Assembly (NCBI GenBank): GCA_027483885.1
Contig: JAIXTO010000089.1
Span: 1-64,000, forward strand
Length of the DNA: 64,000 nucleotides
Source of the DNA: Rhizobiaceae bacterium
GTDB taxonomy: Bacteria; Pseudomonadota; Alphaproteobacteria; Rhizobiales; Rhizobiaceae
Direction of reading: 5' to 3'
Shown: positions 3,891-55,054 of the stretch, piece after piece
How positions within the stretch are numbered: position 1 is the stretch's first letter
How the letters are laid out: each line of letters begins with the position of its first letter
Program-made: the position numbers and the translations under genes
Notes under the pieces: model-generated
Seen by the model: the letters and a program-made list of their open reading frames with translations, nothing else
Database searches by the model: none
What the model was told of the DNA's origin: nothing

Positions 3891-5423
3891 ATGAAGAAGT
3901 TTTTGACTCCTTCTAATTTGCTCCATGCGCAAAAGGCTTCGGGAGAGATAACGGTGGCGAAGGAAGAAGGTGCCCCAGTAACCAGCGCGACGAGGGACGA
4001 GGCCGTGCGCTTTCAGCAACTGCGCCTCCTGGTGGCGCTGGATGCGCTGCTGCGAGAAGCAAGCGTCAGCCGCGCTGCTGCGACACTGGGCCTCCAGACA
4101 TCCTCGATGAGCCGGATGCTAGGCGAGTTGCGGGAAATCTACGGCGACCGCATCTTCATCCGCACCGGCCGCGGCATGTCGCCGACGCCGTTTGCCGAGT
4201 CCATCCGCCAGCGCGTCCGCACCCTGGTGACGGAAACGGAAGCGCTGATGCTGAAGGATGGGGCGGCCCTTACCGCCAGTGCCGGGACCCTGGGAGACGG
4301 CTGGACGGGCAGGACACTGATGCCCATGGCGCCGCTCGCGGCCACCCGCAGTGACCGGCTCGACGCTTCGCCGACACCGGCAATCCTTGCCAGAAGGATC
4401 GCCTCCATCGGTGACAACGCCGCGCCGCAACGCCGGCTGGCAAAATATATCGCGATCACGTCGCCGGGCCCCGGCAAGAGCCGTCCAATGACGACAGAGG
4501 AGGCCCGCGATGCCTTCACCATCGTCCTCAGCGGCGAGGCAGATCGCGTCCAGGTCGGCGCGCTGTTGATGACGATGCAATATCGCGGCGTCACGACGGC
4601 AGAGCTTGCAGGTTTCGTGCAGGCGATCCGGGGCCGTATCCCGCCGGTGCCGGACGCACTCGGGCGTCCCGATCTTGACTGGCCGGCCTATGTGTCGGCG
4701 AGCTGGCGTCATCCCCCCTGGTTCATTCACGCCGCACGGCTCGTCGCCTCCGGCGGGTACAAGGTGCTGATCCACGGCTTTTTCGGCAATGGCGAGGAAA
4801 GCGGCAAGCTGGAGCTTGCCGCCGCCGATGCCGGTATCCGGGTCTGCCTTTCGGTGACCGAGGCGGCGCAGGCGCTTTCGCAAACCAACCTGGCCTATGT
4901 GCCGATCGGGGCCCTCGTGCCGCAGGTGCAGAGCCTGCTTGGCCTTTATCCGCTGTTTGAAACGCGCACACCGGTTCATGCCTTGCCCCACCTCGTCAAC
5001 CCGATGGCAGCACCCTGCATCGTCCTGGGTGCTGCCCAGATGTCGCGACGGGATCTTTATCGAGATGTCGCACGGCAACTCGGAGAAAAGGATGTGACGA
5101 TCCTGGGATCGGTGCGCGATTTTGCACAGTTCACCCCGCTGAAGGCGACGCCGCTCTATCGCATCGTAGAGGGCCAGTCCGAGGATGTGATTGTCCCGGC
5201 CCAGCGCGACGTCAGCCAGATTGCGACACCGCCGATCCTGTCGCAGCGGGAATACTGGCGAGCCGTGTGGACCGGTGCTGCCCGCGACGAATATGCCGAG
5301 GCAACGATTGTCAAAACCGCAGCTGCCGCCCTGCTCTGCCTGGCAAAGGACCGGGCCTTGTCCTTCGAGTCCGCACTGGAGCATGCGGTTCACCTCTGGC
5401 AGAAACGCGACCGCCACGGCTGA
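3891..5423 (+). CDS. LysR-type HTH fused to TrpD2/YbiB-like (anthranilate phosphoribosyltransferase-like) domain
   Basis: N-terminal LysR-like HTH (LRLLVALDALLREASVSRAAATLGLQTSSMSRMLGELREIYGDRIFIRTGRGMSPT). C-terminal TrpD-like sequence (RPMTTEEARDAFTIVLSGEADRVQVGALLMTMQYRGVTTAELAGFVQAIR ... HALPHLVNPMAAPCIVLGA). Confidence 0.82.
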   Translation: MKKFLTPSNLLHAQKASGEITVAKEEGAPVTSATRDEAVRFQQLRLLVALDALLREASVSRAAATLGLQTSSMSRMLGELREIYGDRIFIRTGRGMSPTPFAESIRQRVRTLVTETEALMLKDGAALTASAGTLGDGWTGRTLMPMAPLAATRSDRLDASPTPAILARRIASIGDNAAPQRRLAKYIAITSPGPGKSRPMTTEEARDAFTIVLSGEADRVQVGALLMTMQYRGVTTAELAGFVQAIRGRIPPVPDALGRPDLDWPAYVSASWRHPPWFIHAARLVASGGYKVLIHGFFGNGEESGKLELAAADAGIRVCLSVTEAAQALSQTNLAYVPIGALVPQVQSLLGLYPLFETRTPVHALPHLVNPMAAPCIVLGAAQMSRRDLYRDVARQLGEKDVTILGSVRDFAQFTPLKATPLYRIVEGQSEDVIVPAQRDVSQIATPPILSQREYWRAVWTGAARDEYAEATIVKTAAAALLCLAKDRALSFESALEHAVHLWQKRDRHG

Positions 5424-5505
5424 CCTTCAGGTCACGCCGCAACGGTACCGTTTTCCGCCTATGCGGAGCGAGCGCCAGGGAGGAGTGCCGGGGTCGGCGC
5501 TGCAA

Positions 5506-7773
5506 TCAAAAACGGGCAGCAAGCGAGACGTAGAAGGAGCGGCCGGGCTCGTTGTAGGTGTTTGCCCCTGCATTATTGCCGCTGCCTTCGCGATAGACGC
5601 GCTCATCGAAGACGTTGTTTATGCCAGCCGTCATACGATAGGTCTCGTTTATCTCGTAGGAAGCGCCAAGATTGACCAGCGTATAGGGCTTGCGGGGTTC
5701 CGGGTTGTCGACCACGGAACCATTGAAGGATCGTGAGGTGGGCGACTGCGTTTCACCGTAATGGGTGGCAGACAGGATCAGCGTGACATCCTCGCGCGCT
5801 TTCCATTCGAGCGACGTGTTGATCGTATAGTCCGGCACCAGCGACAGCGGCTGGCCGTCGCTCTTGTTTTCCGACTGGATCATATAGGTGAAGTTCGTCG
5901 CCCAGGTCAGCTGTTCATGCAGGGGCACGGACACATTGCCTTCCAGGCCGGAGACGACGGCCTCGGGCACGTTATCCCACTGGTAGACGTTGACGGTCGC
6001 GGTGCTCATGCCTGCGACGGCGATGGTCGAGGGCGAAATCCGGTTGCGGTAATCGTTATGAAAATAGGTGAGACCCGCATTCCAGCCGAGGTCGTCGTTG
6101 TAGGAGATACCAATCTCCTTGTTGATGCTGGTTTCCGGCTCGAGGTTTTCGTTGCCGATGATGTAGCAGCCGCCGGTGGTTCTCACGGCGCAACCATTGC
6201 CGTTTGAAAACAGGATATATTCGGGGTTCTGCTGAAAGAGGTTCGGCGCCTTGAAGGCCCTTGCGATGCCGGCCTTCAGGGTAATGTTCTCTGTGACGGT
6301 GTAGGATGCGTTGAGGCTTGGGCTTAAGTTCGAGCCGAAAGCGCTATGCTGATCGAGACGAAGTCCAGGCGTCAGCGTGAAGTCGTCGGTAACGGAAATG
6401 TTGTCTTCGGCATAAAGGCCGATCAACCAGTCGCTGCTGTCGGGGTCGAGGTTGCGGGGGATGGCCGGAATTGTGGGATAGGAAACGCTGCTGGAGCCTG
6501 GCTGAGCCGCAGAGACCGGATCATGCATCCATTCGCCGCGATACTCCGTGCCGATCGTCAGCTTCTGCTCGAAGAGGGTCTCGAGCGGCAGGATCCATTC
6601 GCTTTTGGCCGTCAACGTGTCGAGATCAATAGTGCTATTGGTGAGGTCACCGGAAATTGAGCCCTCGCTGCCGCCGGCCAGCGTTTCCGCAAGGCGGGTG
6701 TTGCGCGTGCGCTCCCACTGGATGTAGCTGGTCGATTCGCCGAAATCGTAGGTGCCGCGATGGGTGGCCGCAAGCGACCCGCGTTCCAGGCTGTTGGTTT
6801 CCTCCCCCACCAGCGAGGACAGACGGGCCGCATTCGCACCGGTTGCAGCGTTCTGCGAATCTCCCGCAAACAGGTTGCCCTGGCGGCTATAGGCAGCCTC
6901 GATGTCGATGGCGTGGTCATCGGTCGGTTCGAAGGTGAGGACACCGCGAATGTCCCGGTTGACGACGCCCTCGCGTCCTGCCGGCGGATTTGCCTGTGCT
7001 GCAGCGGAAGCTGCGGCATTGATGTCGGCAGCGTCGTTCTGGGTTCGGCTGTAGTTGCCCATCAGACGGAAGGAGGTCGTTTCGTTGATGGGTCCGCCCA
7101 CCAGGAAGTTGCCGCGAACGGTATGGCCTTCCTTGGAGTCCTGCGGAACGTTCACGTAGGTTGAGGCGGAGCCAGAAAGCGTCTCCGGCTTCTTCGTGAT
7201 AATGTTGACGACACCGCCGGCAGCACCCGACCCGTAGCGGGCTGCGGCCGGTCCGCGGATGACCTCGATGCGCTCTATGGCTTCCGCCGGAACCCAGTTG
7301 CTGTCACCGCGCGAATCCCGCTCCCCGCCGCGCCCCATGCGCACCGAGTTGCGCGACAGCACCGGCTTGCCGTCGATCAGGATCAGTGTGTTTTCCGGCC
7401 CCATGCCGCGCAGGTCAATCTGGCGCTGGTTGCCGCGCTGCCCGGATGCGCTGGTGCCGGTCAGGTTGGCGCCGGGCATCCGTCGGATGATTTCCGAGAT
7501 GTCGTTGGTCACGGGCCGCTGCTCCAGGTCGCTTGCCGTGATCGTTGACACGCCGGGCATCTGCTTCAACTGCTGTTCGGCCGAGAGGATGAGAACCTTG
7601 TCCAGCACAATCCCGTCTTCCTCGCCAGTGCCCTGCTCCTGGGCCTGCGCGGCGGTTGACGCGAGCGAAAGGACCGCACTTAAAACCACCGAAGCGCGCC
7701 CGACACCTCGACCCGAGCAACGCCCCGTCCGCCGCCCGGCATGTCCTGAAATCGGCCTCGTCATCCGCACCAT
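5506..7773 (-). CDS. TonB-dependent siderophore receptor (FepA/PfeA-like)
   Basis: Signal sequence, plug domain (MPGVSTITASDLEQRPVTNDISEIIRRMPGANLTG; IEVIRGPAAARYGSGAAGGVVNIITK), C-terminal ...SFYVSLAARF. Confidence 0.95.
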   Translation of the reverse strand: MVRMTRPISGHAGRRTGRCSGRGVGRASVVLSAVLSLASTAAQAQEQGTGEEDGIVLDKVLILSAEQQLKQMPGVSTITASDLEQRPVTNDISEIIRRMPGANLTGTSASGQRGNQRQIDLRGMGPENTLILIDGKPVLSRNSVRMGRGGERDSRGDSNWVPAEAIERIEVIRGPAAARYGSGAAGGVVNIITKKPETLSGSASTYVNVPQDSKEGHTVRGNFLVGGPINETTSFRLMGNYSRTQNDAADINAAASAAAQANPPAGREGVVNRDIRGVLTFEPTDDHAIDIEAAYSRQGNLFAGDSQNAATGANAARLSSLVGEETNSLERGSLAATHRGTYDFGESTSYIQWERTRNTRLAETLAGGSEGSISGDLTNSTIDLDTLTAKSEWILPLETLFEQKLTIGTEYRGEWMHDPVSAAQPGSSSVSYPTIPAIPRNLDPDSSDWLIGLYAEDNISVTDDFTLTPGLRLDQHSAFGSNLSPSLNASYTVTENITLKAGIARAFKAPNLFQQNPEYILFSNGNGCAVRTTGGCYIIGNENLEPETSINKEIGISYNDDLGWNAGLTYFHNDYRNRISPSTIAVAGMSTATVNVYQWDNVPEAVVSGLEGNVSVPLHEQLTWATNFTYMIQSENKSDGQPLSLVPDYTINTSLEWKAREDVTLILSATHYGETQSPTSRSFNGSVVDNPEPRKPYTLVNLGASYEINETYRMTAGINNVFDERVYREGSGNNAGANTYNEPGRSFYVSLAARF

Positions 7774-7783
7774 CCCATAATGT

Positions 7784-7798
7784 TGACTAATTAAGTCA
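7784..7798. promoter_or_regulatory. Candidate iron-responsive (RirA/IRO-type) operator
   Basis: TGACTAATTAAGTCA = TGA-N9-TCA with 5-bp palindromic arms, 11 bp upstream of the TonB receptor start. Confidence 0.55.
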
Positions 7799-7879
7799 GC
7801 TAATAGGGTCCCACTTGGCAGGCTTCAACGGGGATGTTTTAGAACCGTTAAAAATTGCATGGAACGCAATTGGCGCGTT

Positions 7880-8779
7880 TCAGGCACTGCCCCAGGTGCC
7901 GATCAGCATCGCGAGGAACCGCTCCGCTGCCGGTGACAGCGTCCCTCCCCTTCGCCGGACCACGCCGATCGTTCTTGAGATCTCGGGGTTTCGAATGGGC
8001 CGCGTGATCAGGAAAGGATGTTCGCCCTGCGGTGTTGCCATCTGCGGCAGGACCGAGATCCCCAATCCCGCCTCCACCAGACCGAGCGAGGTGGAGAGAT
8101 GCGTCACCTCGTAAAACCACCGCAGCCTGATGTTGGATTTCGCCAGCGCACCGTCCAGCAGGGTGCGGTTACCGCTGGAGCGATGCACGGTGATCAGATG
8201 GTACGGCGCCAGATCCTCCCAGCCCACCTCGGCCTTTTCCGCCAGCGGATGATCCTTGCGGGCGGCCAGGACGAAGGGGTCTTCCACGAGCCGGTCAAAG
8301 ATCAGGTCCGGATCCGCCGTTCCCATGATGTTGATGCCGAACTCCACCTCCCCGCGTGAAACCGCCTGCAATCCGTCCGTGGCGGGCAGATCGAGGATGC
8401 GGAAACGGATGTTGGGGTATTCAACGTTGAACTGACGGATGACCGTGGGCAGGAAATAGAAGGCGGCCGTCGGCAGGCAGGCAATCGTCACCAGCCCGCC
8501 GCGCTGGACCGCCGGATCGCGCACTGCAAACAGCGATCCGTCGAATTCCTCCAGCATGCGCCGCACCAGCGGTATCAATTCCGCGCCCAGTGCCGTCAGC
8601 GACACGTGCCGCGTCGTGCGCTCCAGCAGCGGCGCCCCGATGGCAAGCTCGAGTTTCTGGATGCGCCGGCTGAGCGCCGGCTGGGACATGTTGAGGATGT
8701 CGGCCGCCCGGTGGAACGTTTCCAGCTCAACAATCGCGAGAAATGCCCGCAGGTCCAGAATCTCACAATTAATGCTCAT
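7880..8779 (-). CDS. LysR family transcriptional regulator
   Basis: N-terminal HTH LRAFLAIVELETFHRAADILNMSQPALSRRIQKLE; divergent from the prpF-like gene. Confidence 0.93.
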   Translation of the reverse strand: MSINCEILDLRAFLAIVELETFHRAADILNMSQPALSRRIQKLELAIGAPLLERTTRHVSLTALGAELIPLVRRMLEEFDGSLFAVRDPAVQRGGLVTIACLPTAAFYFLPTVIRQFNVEYPNIRFRILDLPATDGLQAVSRGEVEFGINIMGTADPDLIFDRLVEDPFVLAARKDHPLAEKAEVGWEDLAPYHLITVHRSSGNRTLLDGALAKSNIRLRWFYEVTHLSTSLGLVEAGLGISVLPQMATPQGEHPFLITRPIRNPEISRTIGVVRRRGGTLSPAAERFLAMLIGTWGSA

Positions 8780-8892
8780 ATCGCATCAATACTCCGAATC
8801 TTCGCATTTCACATATCAATCCATCTGCCACAGAGTGCAACAAATCAACTGATTGATACCCACTACACATGAGTGGAGGCGAAAGCGCAAGC

Positions 8893-9975
8893 ATGAACGA
8901 TCTGATGTCTATTCCCTGTGTGCTGATGCGAGGCGGAACATCAAAGGGCCCGTTCTTTCTGGCGTCCGACCTGCCGGTCGATCCTCGAGAGCGCGACCAG
9001 ATCCTGCTGTCCGTCATGGGGTCAGGGCATCCGCTTCAGATCGATGGCATCGGCGGTGGCAATCCGGTCACGAGCAAGGTTGCGATCATCGGCCCCTCTA
9101 CGATTGCAGGCGCCGATATCGACTATCTCTTCGCGCAGGTGCGCATCGATCAGCAGCTGGTCGATACGGCGCCCAATTGCGGAAACATGCTGGCAGCCGT
9201 CGGCCCCTTTGCCATCGAAGCCGGGCTGATACAGGCGCAAGGGCCAACGACGCTGGTGCGCATCAACAACGTCAATACAGGCAAGCTGATCGAGGCCGAG
9301 GTCCCGACGCCCGATGGCAAGGTTTCCTATCTCGGAGATGCCAGCATTGACGGCGTGCCGGGCAAGGCCGCACCGATTGCGCTGACTTTCATGGATGCGG
9401 CAGGCGCCCGGACGGGCAAGCTCTTTCCCACAGGCCAGTCCTGCGAGCTGATCGACGGCATTGCCGTGACCTGCATCGACTGCGCCATGCCGATGGTTCT
9501 GATTGAGGCCGAGGCGCTCGGGGTGAGCGGATACGAGACCGCAACGGACCTCAACGCCAACAAGGCCCTGCTTGCACGGCTGGAAAGCCTGCGGCTGGAG
9601 GCAGGCCGGCGCATGGGCATGGGCGACGTCACCAACCAGGTTACGCCGAAGCCGGTGCTGATCAGCAAGGCCCGCAAGGGCGGCGCTCTCAATGTGCGGT
9701 ATTTCATGCCGCATGAATGCCACCCTTCCCTTGCGACAACCGGTGCAGTTGGAATTGCGACAGCCTGCATCACGGCCGATACTGTGGCATCCAGGCTTAT
9801 CGGGCTTCGGACGCCGCCGATCGTTTTATCTATCGAACATCCCAGCGGCCATCTCGACGTCAAGCTGCAGGAGCGCGACGAAAAGGTGATTGCCGGAATT
9901 CTGCGCACCGCGCGCCGTCTCTTCGAGGGACATGTCTTTGCAAAGCCGGCCAGCCAGTTCGTGTGCGCGGCTTGA
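8893..9975 (+). CDS. PrpF-family isomerase/4-oxalomesaconate tautomerase-like protein
   Basis: IPCVLMRGGTSKGPFF...GSGHPLQIDGIGGGNPVTSKVAIIGPS and APNCGNMLAAVGPFAIE motifs. Confidence 0.88.
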   Translation: MNDLMSIPCVLMRGGTSKGPFFLASDLPVDPRERDQILLSVMGSGHPLQIDGIGGGNPVTSKVAIIGPSTIAGADIDYLFAQVRIDQQLVDTAPNCGNMLAAVGPFAIEAGLIQAQGPTTLVRINNVNTGKLIEAEVPTPDGKVSYLGDASIDGVPGKAAPIALTFMDAAGARTGKLFPTGQSCELIDGIAVTCIDCAMPMVLIEAEALGVSGYETATDLNANKALLARLESLRLEAGRRMGMGDVTNQVTPKPVLISKARKGGALNVRYFMPHECHPSLATTGAVGIATACITADTVASRLIGLRTPPIVLSIEHPSGHLDVKLQERDEKVIAGILRTARRLFEGHVFAKPASQFVCAA

Positions 9976-10020
9976 AATCACGTGGTCGCCGGGAGGGCAC
10001 CACTTAACGGAGGAAAAACA

Positions 10021-11022
10021 ATGCGTAAATTCATGCTCGCTTTGGCGGCAACTGTTGCTTTCGCCGGAGCAGCGATGGCTGAGCCGGTTCGTATCAGCGT
10101 CGGATCCTACAACCTCAACAACCTGCCATTCCCGGTTGCCCAGGGGCTCGGCCTCTATGAGAAGGAAGGCCTTGACGTCACAGTCGAGAATTTTGCCTCC
10201 GGCGGATCGAAAACCCTTCAGGCGCTGGTCGCTGGCTCGACCGACATTGCCGTTGGCTTCTACGATCACACGATCCAGATGCAGTCGCAGAACAAGGCGG
10301 TCGTCGGTTTTGTCATGATGGCGCGCAATTCAGGCCTCGTTCTGGCCGGTGGCAACAAGTCGACCTTCGATCCCGCCAAGCCCGAGACGATCAAGGGCGC
10401 AAAGATCGGCATCACGGCGCCGGGCTCCTCGTCGGACTTCTTCGTTCGTTATTACCTGCAGCGTCACAAGCTCGCGGCAGACGATATCGCGCTGATCGGC
10501 GTTGGCTCGGGCTCGGCAGCCGTTGCGGCCCTGGAACAGGGCAAGATCGATCTTCTCGTCAACTATGACCCGGCGGCCACCTTCATCGAGGCCAAGGGCG
10601 TCGGCAAGATCCTCATCGATGCGCGCAGCGACGAAGGCGCCAAGGAAATCTATGGCGGCATCTACCCGACCTCGGTCCTCTACGCCACGCAGTCCTACAT
10701 CGACGGCAATCCCGAGACCATTCAGAAAGTCACCAACGCCACCGTCAAGGCGCTGAAGTGGATGAACTCCCATTCCGCCGAAGAGATCGTCGAGACGCTG
10801 CCCAAGGAGTTCATCTCCGGCGACCGCGAGACCTATGTGAAGGCGGTACAGAACGCCAAGGCGATCTTCTCCACCGATGGCAAGTTCAACCAGGAAGATA
10901 TCAAGACGCCGCTCGCCGTCCTCAAAAGCTTCAACGAGAAGGTTGCGGCAACGGAGATCGATCTTTCCAAGACATACACCAACGATTTCGTCGGCAAGGT
11001 GCCGCACGACGTCGCGAACTGA
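10021..11022 (+). CDS. ABC transporter substrate-binding protein (SsuA/NMT1-like)
   Basis: Signal peptide MRKFMLALAATVAFAGAAMA; NMT1-type sequence (GLYEKEGLDVTVENFASGGSKTLQALVAGSTDIAVG). Confidence 0.9.
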   Translation: MRKFMLALAATVAFAGAAMAEPVRISVGSYNLNNLPFPVAQGLGLYEKEGLDVTVENFASGGSKTLQALVAGSTDIAVGFYDHTIQMQSQNKAVVGFVMMARNSGLVLAGGNKSTFDPAKPETIKGAKIGITAPGSSSDFFVRYYLQRHKLAADDIALIGVGSGSAAVAALEQGKIDLLVNYDPAATFIEAKGVGKILIDARSDEGAKEIYGGIYPTSVLYATQSYIDGNPETIQKVTNATVKALKWMNSHSAEEIVETLPKEFISGDRETYVKAVQNAKAIFSTDGKFNQEDIKTPLAVLKSFNEKVAATEIDLSKTYTNDFVGKVPHDVAN

Positions 11023-11034
11023 CAGGAGGAGGCA

Positions 11035-11865
11035 ATGTCATTGGCCGTAGTCAAACCCGCGCCGGAAGCTGAGGCAACCGCACGCAACAAGGCCATGGTG
11101 TCGATCGACACCGTGACCATGTCGTTCGGTGCGTTCGTTGCCGTGGAGAATGTCAATCTGACTGTTGCGGATGGCGAGTTCCTCGCCATCGTCGGGCCGA
11201 CGGGCTGTGGCAAGAGCACGATCCTGAACGCCATCGCCGGATTGTTGAAACCCTCGCACGGCACCGTGTCGATTGACGGAAAAGCGGTCAATGGCGTTCA
11301 CAACGACATCGGCTACCTGTTCCAGCAGGATGCGCTCCTGCCGTGGAAAACCGCGTTGGAAAATGTCGAGCTTGGCCCGATGTTCAAGGGTGTCGGCGCC
11401 GCCGAGCGTCGAGAAAGCGCGCTGAACTGGCTTGCGAAGGTCGGCCTGAAAGGCTTTGAGCATCGTTATCCGCATCAGCTGTCCGGCGGCCAACGCAAGC
11501 GCGTGCAGATGGCGCAGGCGCTGATCACCGGCCCGAAGGTGATCCTGATGGATGAACCCTTCTCGGCACTCGACATCCACACCCGCCACCTGATGCAGAA
11601 CGAACTTCTGCGCCTGTGGCAGGAAGAACGCCGGGCCGTCGTGATGATCACGCACGATCTTGAGGAAGCAATCGCACTTGGCGACCGCGTCGTGGTGCTC
11701 GCCGCCGGCCCGCGCAGCCGCGTGATCGACAGTTTTCCCGTCGATCTCGCCCGCCCGCGCGATGTGGCCGAAATCAAGCTCGATCCGCACTTCATGGATC
11801 TGTACCGCAACATCTGGGCGTCGCTGCGCGGCGAAGTGGAGAAAAGCTATGAACGCCATGACTGA
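11035..11865 (+). CDS. ABC transporter ATP-binding protein (SsuB/TauB-like)
   Basis: Walker A GPTGCGKST, LSGGQRKR, VILMDEPFSALD. Confidence 0.94.
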   Translation: MSLAVVKPAPEAEATARNKAMVSIDTVTMSFGAFVAVENVNLTVADGEFLAIVGPTGCGKSTILNAIAGLLKPSHGTVSIDGKAVNGVHNDIGYLFQQDALLPWKTALENVELGPMFKGVGAAERRESALNWLAKVGLKGFEHRYPHQLSGGQRKRVQMAQALITGPKVILMDEPFSALDIHTRHLMQNELLRLWQEERRAVVMITHDLEEAIALGDRVVVLAAGPRSRVIDSFPVDLARPRDVAEIKLDPHFMDLYRNIWASLRGEVEKSYERHD

Positions 11866-52317: not shown

Positions 52318-52652
52318 ACAGCACCCGCTGGCGTTGCGTGTAACGCAAAACGCCATCCTGGCGGAAGATGGCCGGCCAAAAGGTCTCACCAGGAACTGGA
52401 CGAGACTGTCTGCTCCCAGCGAAAACCAACAGTCTGGGCAACGCTGGAACGGTGGGTGCATAACCAAGTCGCGCCGCGATTGCTGAAATTTCGGCACAGC
52501 TACACACCCATCGGGCGCAGCATGATCGGACGATCCGACAATTCCAGTTCTGTCTCGTGAGCGGAACGGCTAACCCTGTTCGAAGAGACCCGGGGTCTCA
52601 TCTCATCGATCCCAGGGCGCTTGCAATCTGATACGAACACATATAGTACGAT

Positions 52653-52668
52653 CCCTAACTACTTAGGG
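52653..52668. promoter_or_regulatory. Candidate MarR operator
   Basis: CCCTAA-CTAC-TTAGGG inverted repeat 7 bp upstream of the marR start codon. Confidence 0.5.
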
Positions 52669-52675
52669 TGCCGCC

Positions 52676-53203
52676 ATGCTCAATGCCAAACACAAATCTC
52701 TCTATGAAGAAGCCCAGCGTCGAGGACGAAGGGATGTTCGACAGATTGAACTCTGCGGCGGGGTCCTCAGCCTTGCCGCTGCAATTGAGGCCGATTGCGC
52801 TCGGCGGCTTTCGCGGCATCAGCTCTCGGAGAGCAAATTCGTCATGCTTGTCGTGCTGCTTGAGGCGAAGGATGGGCTTGCTGCCAACGAAGTAGCGACA
52901 CGCTGTGGTGTCACGCGCGCCACCATGACCAGCCTGATCGATGGGCTGGAGCGTGATGGCCTCGCCCGTCGCACAGCCGATGGACAAGATCGACGTAGCG
53001 TCAACATCCAACTGACAGACAAAGGCGCGGATCTGGCACGTTCCGTGTTCGACGAACATGCGGAATGGTTGGCTTCGGTCTTCGGTGGATTGGATCGGGA
53101 GCAGTCGGAGCTACTGACCTCGATGATCCGTTTGATCTGGCAGAAAACCGATGTCGGAAAACTGGCCTCCGCAGCCACCACACCCGACGATGAGACTGCC
53201 TGA
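52676..53203 (+). CDS. MarR family transcriptional regulator
   Basis: wHTH LAANEVATRCGVTRATMTSLIDGLERDGLARRTADGQDRRSVNIQLTDKG. Confidence 0.93.
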   Translation: MLNAKHKSLYEEAQRRGRRDVRQIELCGGVLSLAAAIEADCARRLSRHQLSESKFVMLVVLLEAKDGLAANEVATRCGVTRATMTSLIDGLERDGLARRTADGQDRRSVNIQLTDKGADLARSVFDEHAEWLASVFGGLDREQSELLTSMIRLIWQKTDVGKLASAATTPDDETA

Positions 53204-53263
53204 GCAAGGTCCACTTGCCCCTCTACTTTCAGGCGCAATCAGGCAATCAGCAAGGCCACTCCC

Positions 53264-55054
53264 ATGCCTCTCTCGAATATCCGTAATTTCTGCATCATTG
53301 CCCATATTGACCACGGCAAGTCGACACTCGCCGACCGTTTCATTGAGATGACCCAGACGGTAACCGACCGCGACATGCAGGAACAGCTGCTTGATTCAAT
53401 GGATATTGAGCGAGAGCGCGGCATCACAGTGAAGCTGCGCCCAGTGCGCATGCAGCACCGAGCCGCGGACGGCATCGACTACCAGTTCAACCTGATCGAT
53501 ACACCCGGCCATGTGGATTTCTCCGCTGAAGTCAGTCGTAGCCTTGCGGCCTGCGAGGGCGCAATCGTCCTGATCGATGCGACGCAGGGCGTGCAGGCGC
53601 AGACCATTGCCAATGTGCGGCTGGCGCGCGAACAGGGGCTGAAGTTGCTTGCCGTTCTCAATAAGATCGACAGTCCACTTTCCGATCCGCAGCGCATCAT
53701 TCGCCAGCTTTACGACATCGAGGGGCTCGATCCGGACGAGGTGCTGCTGGTATCGGCCAGAACCGGCGAAGGCGTTCGCACGGTGCTGGACGCGATTGCA
53801 AGCACGTTCCCACCGCCAGAAAGCAAGGATGAGCTGCTGCGGGCGCTTGTCTTCGACAGCTATTACGATCCCTATCGGGGCGTGGTCCTTTCAGTGCGCG
53901 TCGTGGACGGCACCGTGGCAGTGGGCAATCGCATTCGCTTCATGTCGGCACCTGCCGGGTTCGAAGTGACTGAAGTGGGCATTTTTCGACCCGAACTTGT
54001 GCCGTGGAAAAAACTCTCGGCCGGAGAGGTTGGTTATGTCGCAACCGGCATCAAGGACCCCACCTACATCCGGCTCGGTGACACGCTGACATGGATGGAC
54101 AAGCCCGCGCAACAGCCGGTTGCCACCTACCGTGAATCCAAACCCATGGTGTTTGCAGGTCTATACCCTTCCGGCAATCTGACCATCAACATGTTGCGCG
54201 ATGCGGTGCAGAAGCTCGCGCTGAATGACGCCGCCTTCCGCGCCGAAGCCGAAGTTTCGGAAGCTCTAGGCGCTGGCTATCGCTGTGGTTTCCTGGGTAT
54301 GTTGCATCTGGAGATCATCAAAGAGCGACTGAGACGGGAGTATGGCGTCGAAGTCATCACCACTGCGCCGAGCGTTGTCTACAAGGTGACGCTCAAAGAC
54401 GGCGAAGTACGCTTCATCGACAATCCAGCCCATTTTCCGAACCCGGAGACACTCGAGCTTGCCGAAGAACCGATGGTGTCAAGCGTGATTCAGACGCCCT
54501 CGGATCACGTTGGCGCGGTGATGGAATTGTGCGGTCGCAGCCGTGGCATCTTCGGCACACTGGATTATGGCGATGATGGTTATGCGCGCATTGCTTATGA
54601 ACTGCCCATGAGCCAGATGGCCTTTGGCTTTTTCGACAGCCTGAAATCCCTGACCCAGGGTTATGCCACACTGGATTACGAGTTCTCCGATTACCGTCCC
54701 GCTGATCTTGTGCGTGTGGATATCCTGATCGAGAATCAACCAGTCGATGCCTTCGCCTTTGTGTGCGTGCGACTGCAGGCCTACGAGAAAGCCGCCGATA
54801 TCGTTCACAGACTGAAATATGTCATGCCAAAAAAGCTCTATCCTGTGCCGCTTCAGGCCGCCATCGGCAGCCGCGTGATCGCCCGCGAAGATATTCCTCC
54901 ATTGCGCAAAGATGCGCTGGCCAAGGGCTTCGAGGGGAGCATGTCGGCAAAAAACAGACTGATCCGCAAGGCGAAGGAAAACAAGGGCAAGCGACACGGA
55001 CTTTCCCGGGGCGACATCCCCAAGGAAGCCTTTCTCGCGATACTGGGCGTATGA
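53264..55054 (+). CDS. LepA/EF4-family translational GTPase, divergent paralogue
   Basis: [39 protein letters not shown]; LepA C-terminal region ending [16 protein letters not shown]. Confidence 0.93.

Follow-up and report, generated by a model that had tools for sequence, protein, structure and literature searches.

The cassette described here lies on the forward strand of a 64,000-nucleotide stretch of DNA (the window) and consists of two genes. The upstream ORF, marR (52676-53203, + strand), encodes a 175-residue MarR-family regulator with a wHTH domain (Pfam MarR/MarR_2; PF12802 and PF01047, both above gathering scores). The downstream ORF, lepA2 (53264-55054, + strand), encodes a divergent LepA/EF4 paralogue of 596 residues, an assignment based on the TIGR01393 profile, a tree with AU tests and a structural model that fits LepA structures. 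An earlier note on this DNA had described a full-length LepA-type gene 60 bp downstream of a MarR gene and away from lepB, and both statements agree with what we find: the two genes share a strand and are separated by a 60-bp gap in which a scan found no terminator-like site, and the flanking genes are tetR, aminotransferase, MFS and CoA-transferase genes, with no lepB adjoining.

The palindrome that the same note had seen at the marR promoter, CCCTAA-CTAC-TTAGGG, is present and exact (52653-52668, + strand), 7 bp 5' of the marR start codon, and is a putative MarR operator. The pattern CCCTAA-N4-TTAGGG occurs only once in the 5.5-Mb assembly, just 5' of marR (a reversed-pattern control gave 0 occurrences), and hence no further site in the assembly points to a wider regulon served through it. 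Comparison of marR promoters indicates a second, weaker operator-like unit (52634-52654, + strand), of putative role, which contains TATAGT (52642-52647). The matching unit at the other LepA2 loci reads GGxxCC-ATATAGTWA-GGCGCC. A promoter scan found no sigma-70 consensus at 52634-52654.

LepA2 scores 776 bits on the TIGR01393 lepA profile (cut-off 534) and has the full LepA domain set, with the Pfam LepA_C domain (PF06421) extending across residues 489-594. Its G domain aligns with that of LepA, without the G' insertion of EF-G. The G-motifs had been reported as intact, which holds for G1-G4 (G2 RERGIT, G3 DTPGHVDF, G4 NKID) and for the catalytic His83 (E. coli His81) but not for G5, where SAK reads SAR. 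An AlphaFold model matches LepA structures and the LepA fold; it is of moderate quality (mean pLDDT 78), with pLDDT below 50 at residues 550-559 and 572-584, so that it does not give the fold of the changed C-terminal tip. In comparison to canonical LepA/EF4 (TIGR01393; PDB 3CB4, 2YWE, 4W2E and 5IMQ), LepA2 is alike in length, domains, GTPase motifs, catalytic histidine and fold, but differs in its identity of 45-51%, its separate long branch, its accessory nature, its marR neighbour and the loss of the C-terminal-domain signature CYGGD...RKxKLL...GKKRM. Judged by profile, domain and motif tests, LepA2 belongs to the LepA family as a divergent paralogue without the C-terminal signature; the missing signature weakens the case for action as a canonical EF4 and leaves its profile-based membership of the family untouched. 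Tet(M)-type ribosomal protection proteins are likewise accessory EF-G-superfamily GTPases, and a protection role is possible for LepA2 as well, but it differs from them in possessing LepA_C and in scoring only 147 bits on the tet_protect profile, far under the cut-off of 775.

A canonical lepA is also present in the assembly, as two contig-end pieces (C59:2-1408 and C51:2-532) that are 48% and 39% identical to LepA2, respectively; identity between LepA2 and the resident LepA is about 46%. The outer flanks of the two pieces match the flanks of canonical lepA in congeners, and when joined the pieces group with lepA of genus members. Identity across their 155-bp overlap is only about 88%, and this difference of roughly 12% implies that the assembly (5.5 Mb; completeness 96%, contamination 3.7%) probably mixes closely related strains, the two pieces probably being one locus. 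Hence the proposals of the earlier note that the window gene is a second EF4 besides a canonical copy, and a strongly divergent one, both stand.

In a tree of 36 LepA proteins, repeated with 38 rows, LepA2 forms one clade (support 100/100) that lies outside the alphaproteobacterial clade and whose branch measures 1.63 changes per site. AU tests reject a grouping of LepA2 with the LepA of its genus (p = 4.5e-5) and marginally reject a grouping with all Alphaproteobacteria (p = 0.04). Long-branch effects may influence this position and, with it, any assignment of a donor. The phylogeny of both copies, which had been suggested as a check, thus places the canonical gene with the genus and LepA2 on a separate long branch; the outcome that would have spoken against a second EF4, a sole lepA clustering with rhizobial housekeeping genes, was not what we found. 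It is extremely improbable that LepA2 serves as the housekeeping LepA here or arose from it by recent duplication within the genus: the canonical gene is incomplete in the assembly, which is the one point in favour of this reading, but its pieces exist and group with lepA of the genus, and the same AU test rejects recent duplication.

We found LepA2 in four Rhizobium genomes, at five loci in total. Besides the window copy these are Rhizobium sp. FY34 (88% identical to the window), MAG AG18 (87%), plasmid pMK-3 (82%) and plasmid pMK-2 of Rhizobium sp. NIBRBAC000502774, where the gene is broken off after about 389 codons. In the pMK-2 locus excerpt (10001-11212) lepA2 runs at that point into unrelated sequence, and its marR is intact. 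Both plasmids are typed as conjugative, so that one of the two copies on conjugative plasmids is truncated. At 5/5 loci marR lies directly upstream of lepA2, and the flanks differ. As read from ORFs, the FY34 copy is flanked by branched-chain-amino-acid-type ABC transporter genes and an Lrp-type regulator, and the AG18 copy by murA-like and hisD-like genes. On pMK-3 and pMK-2 a two-gene multidrug-type RND efflux pump is divergent from marR-lepA2 (excerpts 4800-9135 and 4798-9133, respectively); a search before this pump for the operator of the MarR clade gave only weak matches (11-13/21 bases), and none of the other three loci has an RND pump beside lepA2. When the 7.2 kb of the window that end at marR were searched against FY34, marR was the sole substantial match, and the CoA-transferase operon on the 3' side in the window has counterparts elsewhere among Rhizobium replicons, the matches breaking off before lepA2. 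Together with the differing flanks, these boundaries argue that marR-lepA2 is the moving unit.

The cassette is rare. A search of the genus found LepA2 in 2/58 genomes (the window genome and FY34), and among 299 genomes of the family only the window genome had more than one LepA match at E<=1e-100. No LepA2 relatives above about 51% identity were found outside Rhizobium in the family, class, phylum and order samples (299, 385, 399 and 393 genomes, respectively), these searches covering about 1,600 genomes in overlapping sets; the contig scan requires exact 8-residue matches, and relatives of 60-70% identity could escape it. Two 50% matches from the order sample were considered as kin and rejected, as they fall inside the alphaproteobacterial lepA clade. 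The plasmid set contained no relatives beyond the two pMK plasmids, and IMG/VR contained none. Among the matches listed from phage records, the best full-length one is 52% identical to LepA2, with one record having a match in the 60-80% band left out. A 274-kb record of Microcystis phage MaAM05 carries an annotated full-length lepA (MW495066.1 204974-206743) that is 48% identical to LepA2.

The four full LepA2 copies differ at 42-56% of third positions and have no indels over 596 codons. With dN at 0.06-0.12 and dS at 0.7-2.2, the latter near saturation, these values indicate that LepA2 is under purifying selection. Against this background, we compared LepA2 with 184 near-invariant columns defined over 32 other LepA sequences. 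Changes are concentrated in the C-terminal domain (residues 487-596; 54722-55051, + strand), where 16/37 such sites are altered, vs 12/147 elsewhere (Fisher p=2e-6), and the C-terminal changes are present in all four full copies. The near-invariant C-terminal signature of LepA (Tyr554, a Gly-Gly linker and a basic helix) is absent from LepA2, which has Phe at the position of E. coli Tyr554 and Glu or Asp at Gly555. Taken singly, no other LepA lineage has changes concentrated in this way except the B. subtilis row, whose signal we attribute to gaps (a truncated plasmid copy, 573 residues aligned). The LepA-specific C-terminal domain reaches the peptidyl-transferase centre, and from its altered state we infer that LepA2 would meet this centre differently from canonical LepA.

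The MarR protein has relatives that precede other genes. All 22 MarR relatives found in the family (38-48% identical) are followed by a gene for an AlkD-like DNA-alkylation protein, by one for a DUF6616 protein or by the two together, with alkD present next to 17/22. Sphingopyxis, Paracoccus and Klebsiella also have plasmids with the marR-alkD-DUF6616 arrangement, and a plasmid of Shinella has marR-DUF6616. Operons of these two types are widespread, in many Rhizobiaceae, and have a strongly conserved promoter palindrome. On Sphingopyxis pDB-2 the neighbour of a related marR, in divergent orientation, is an RND pump of Cus/Czc type. These operons resemble the window cassette in their MarR clade (38-50% identity), two invariant cysteines, an equally placed operator-like motif and a short or overlapping junction between marR and the second gene; they differ in that the place of alkD is taken by lepA2, and no DUF6616 gene was seen beside lepA2. 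In the open-access literature we found no name for these operons and nothing relevant on DUF6616 or on a MarR-AlkD pairing, and the operon type is apparently undescribed.

Promoters of the MarR clade have a common 25-bp motif close to RTWWGGCGCCATAYTATAYGGCGCC, mostly ending a few bases 5' of marR. The window palindrome occupies this position, and its sequence differs from the clade motif while its symmetry is kept. A diverged but symmetric site is what would be expected had regulator and site changed together, and we infer that this happened in the window lineage. The two cysteines, Cys27 (52754-52756, + strand) and Cys41 (52796-52798, + strand), are kept in 33/33 MarRs compared. Their location near the N terminus suggests thiol sensing; however, the quinone-responsive MhqR has no thiol mechanism (PMC6798810), so the cysteines need not be the sensor and thiol sensing is only a lead. 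The relatives of this MarR point to alkylating, electrophilic or drug stress, not to phenolics in particular.

These data are consistent with a model, to which we give about an even chance, where marR-lepA2 is a horizontally moving two-gene cassette for a chemical-stress-inducible EF4 paralogue with altered ribosome action. MarR would act as a repressor at the palindrome before marR and hold the marR-lepA2 operon low. Relief would come with a chemical stress, for which a thiol-reactive or alkylating compound is the likeliest signal, perceived through Cys27/Cys41 or in the ligand pocket of MarR. LepA2, with its intact GTPase core and changed C-terminal domain, would then be made, and on ribosomes that are stalled or damaged it would act at the A site or peptidyl-transferase centre, giving the cell an EF4 specialised for stress in addition to its housekeeping LepA. 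The regulatory half of the model draws on comparative evidence, with repression and ligand as its putative elements, and the ribosomal half is suggested by the LepA fold and the changed C-terminal domain. In its favour we count the second copy, its rarity, the marR pairing, the sequence constraint, the retained G-motifs and catalytic histidine, the C-terminal changes, the MarR clade and the RND pump on the pMK plasmids; against it we count the difference between the window operator and the clade motif, the example of MhqR as regards the cysteines, and the truncation of one of five lepA2 copies. Furthermore, a passage in PMC13090387 cites higher tolerance to several antibiotics in an E. coli lepA deletion, so more EF4 is not obviously protective, which also counts against the model.

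Chief among the rival readings are that LepA2 is an inducible backup of ordinary LepA or that it protects against a drug. A backup would do the ordinary work of LepA (initiation, 30S maturation, elongation pausing), so that only its regulation would be new. The complete set of LepA domains, the intact GTPase core and the LepA fold are all compatible with this, but the low identity to the resident LepA (about 46%) and the concentration of losses at LepA-invariant sites in the C-terminal domain are not readily so, and we consider it fairly unlikely. We regard as unlikely that LepA2 shields ribosomes from a ribosome-targeting antibiotic, resembling Tet(M) in action while belonging to another family. 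MarR control, plasmid carriage, the multidrug-type pump nearby on pMK-2 and pMK-3, and changes in the very domain that reaches the peptidyl-transferase centre would fit such a role; on the other hand the remaining three loci have no adjoining pump, DNA-alkylation repair and not drug resistance is what the sister operons carry, and LepA2 is far under the Tet family cut-offs. It is very unlikely that lepA2 is a neutral or selfish passenger that rides with marR and is useless to its host: rare and patchy occurrence and the truncated plasmid copy would be explained, but not the strong constraint on 596 indel-free codons in four copies so different at third positions.

Taking the stress-inducible cassette as the preferred reading, a more specific version can be put forward tentatively. 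Here a horizontally transferred EF4 paralogue under a thiol-sensing MarR switch would rescue or remodel ribosomes that chemically damaged RNA, or a toxin at the peptidyl-transferase centre, has brought to a halt. It would be the translation side of a mobile response to chemical damage, with the sister alkD operon as the DNA side.

Almost all bacteria have LepA, yet deleting it has weak effects and its function is disputed. We found nothing relevant on a second bacterial LepA in the open-access literature. A survey of translational GTPases (PMC4342817) covers duplicates of EF-Tu and EF-G in bacteria, and in these passages it mentions no paralogue of bacterial LepA. The duplicates treated there, such as the second EF-Tu of Streptomyces and spdEFG2, are alike in being second, divergent translation factors thought to be condition-specific, but they are different factors from LepA2. 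An accessory, apparently regulated and horizontally spread LepA2 must be kept for some condition-specific task. Through lepA2 a MarR clade of alkylation-repair operons is tied to translation, and LepA2 is a good handle on the role of LepA-type factors under chemical stress; its inducer and deletion phenotype could reveal directly when EF4 is needed.
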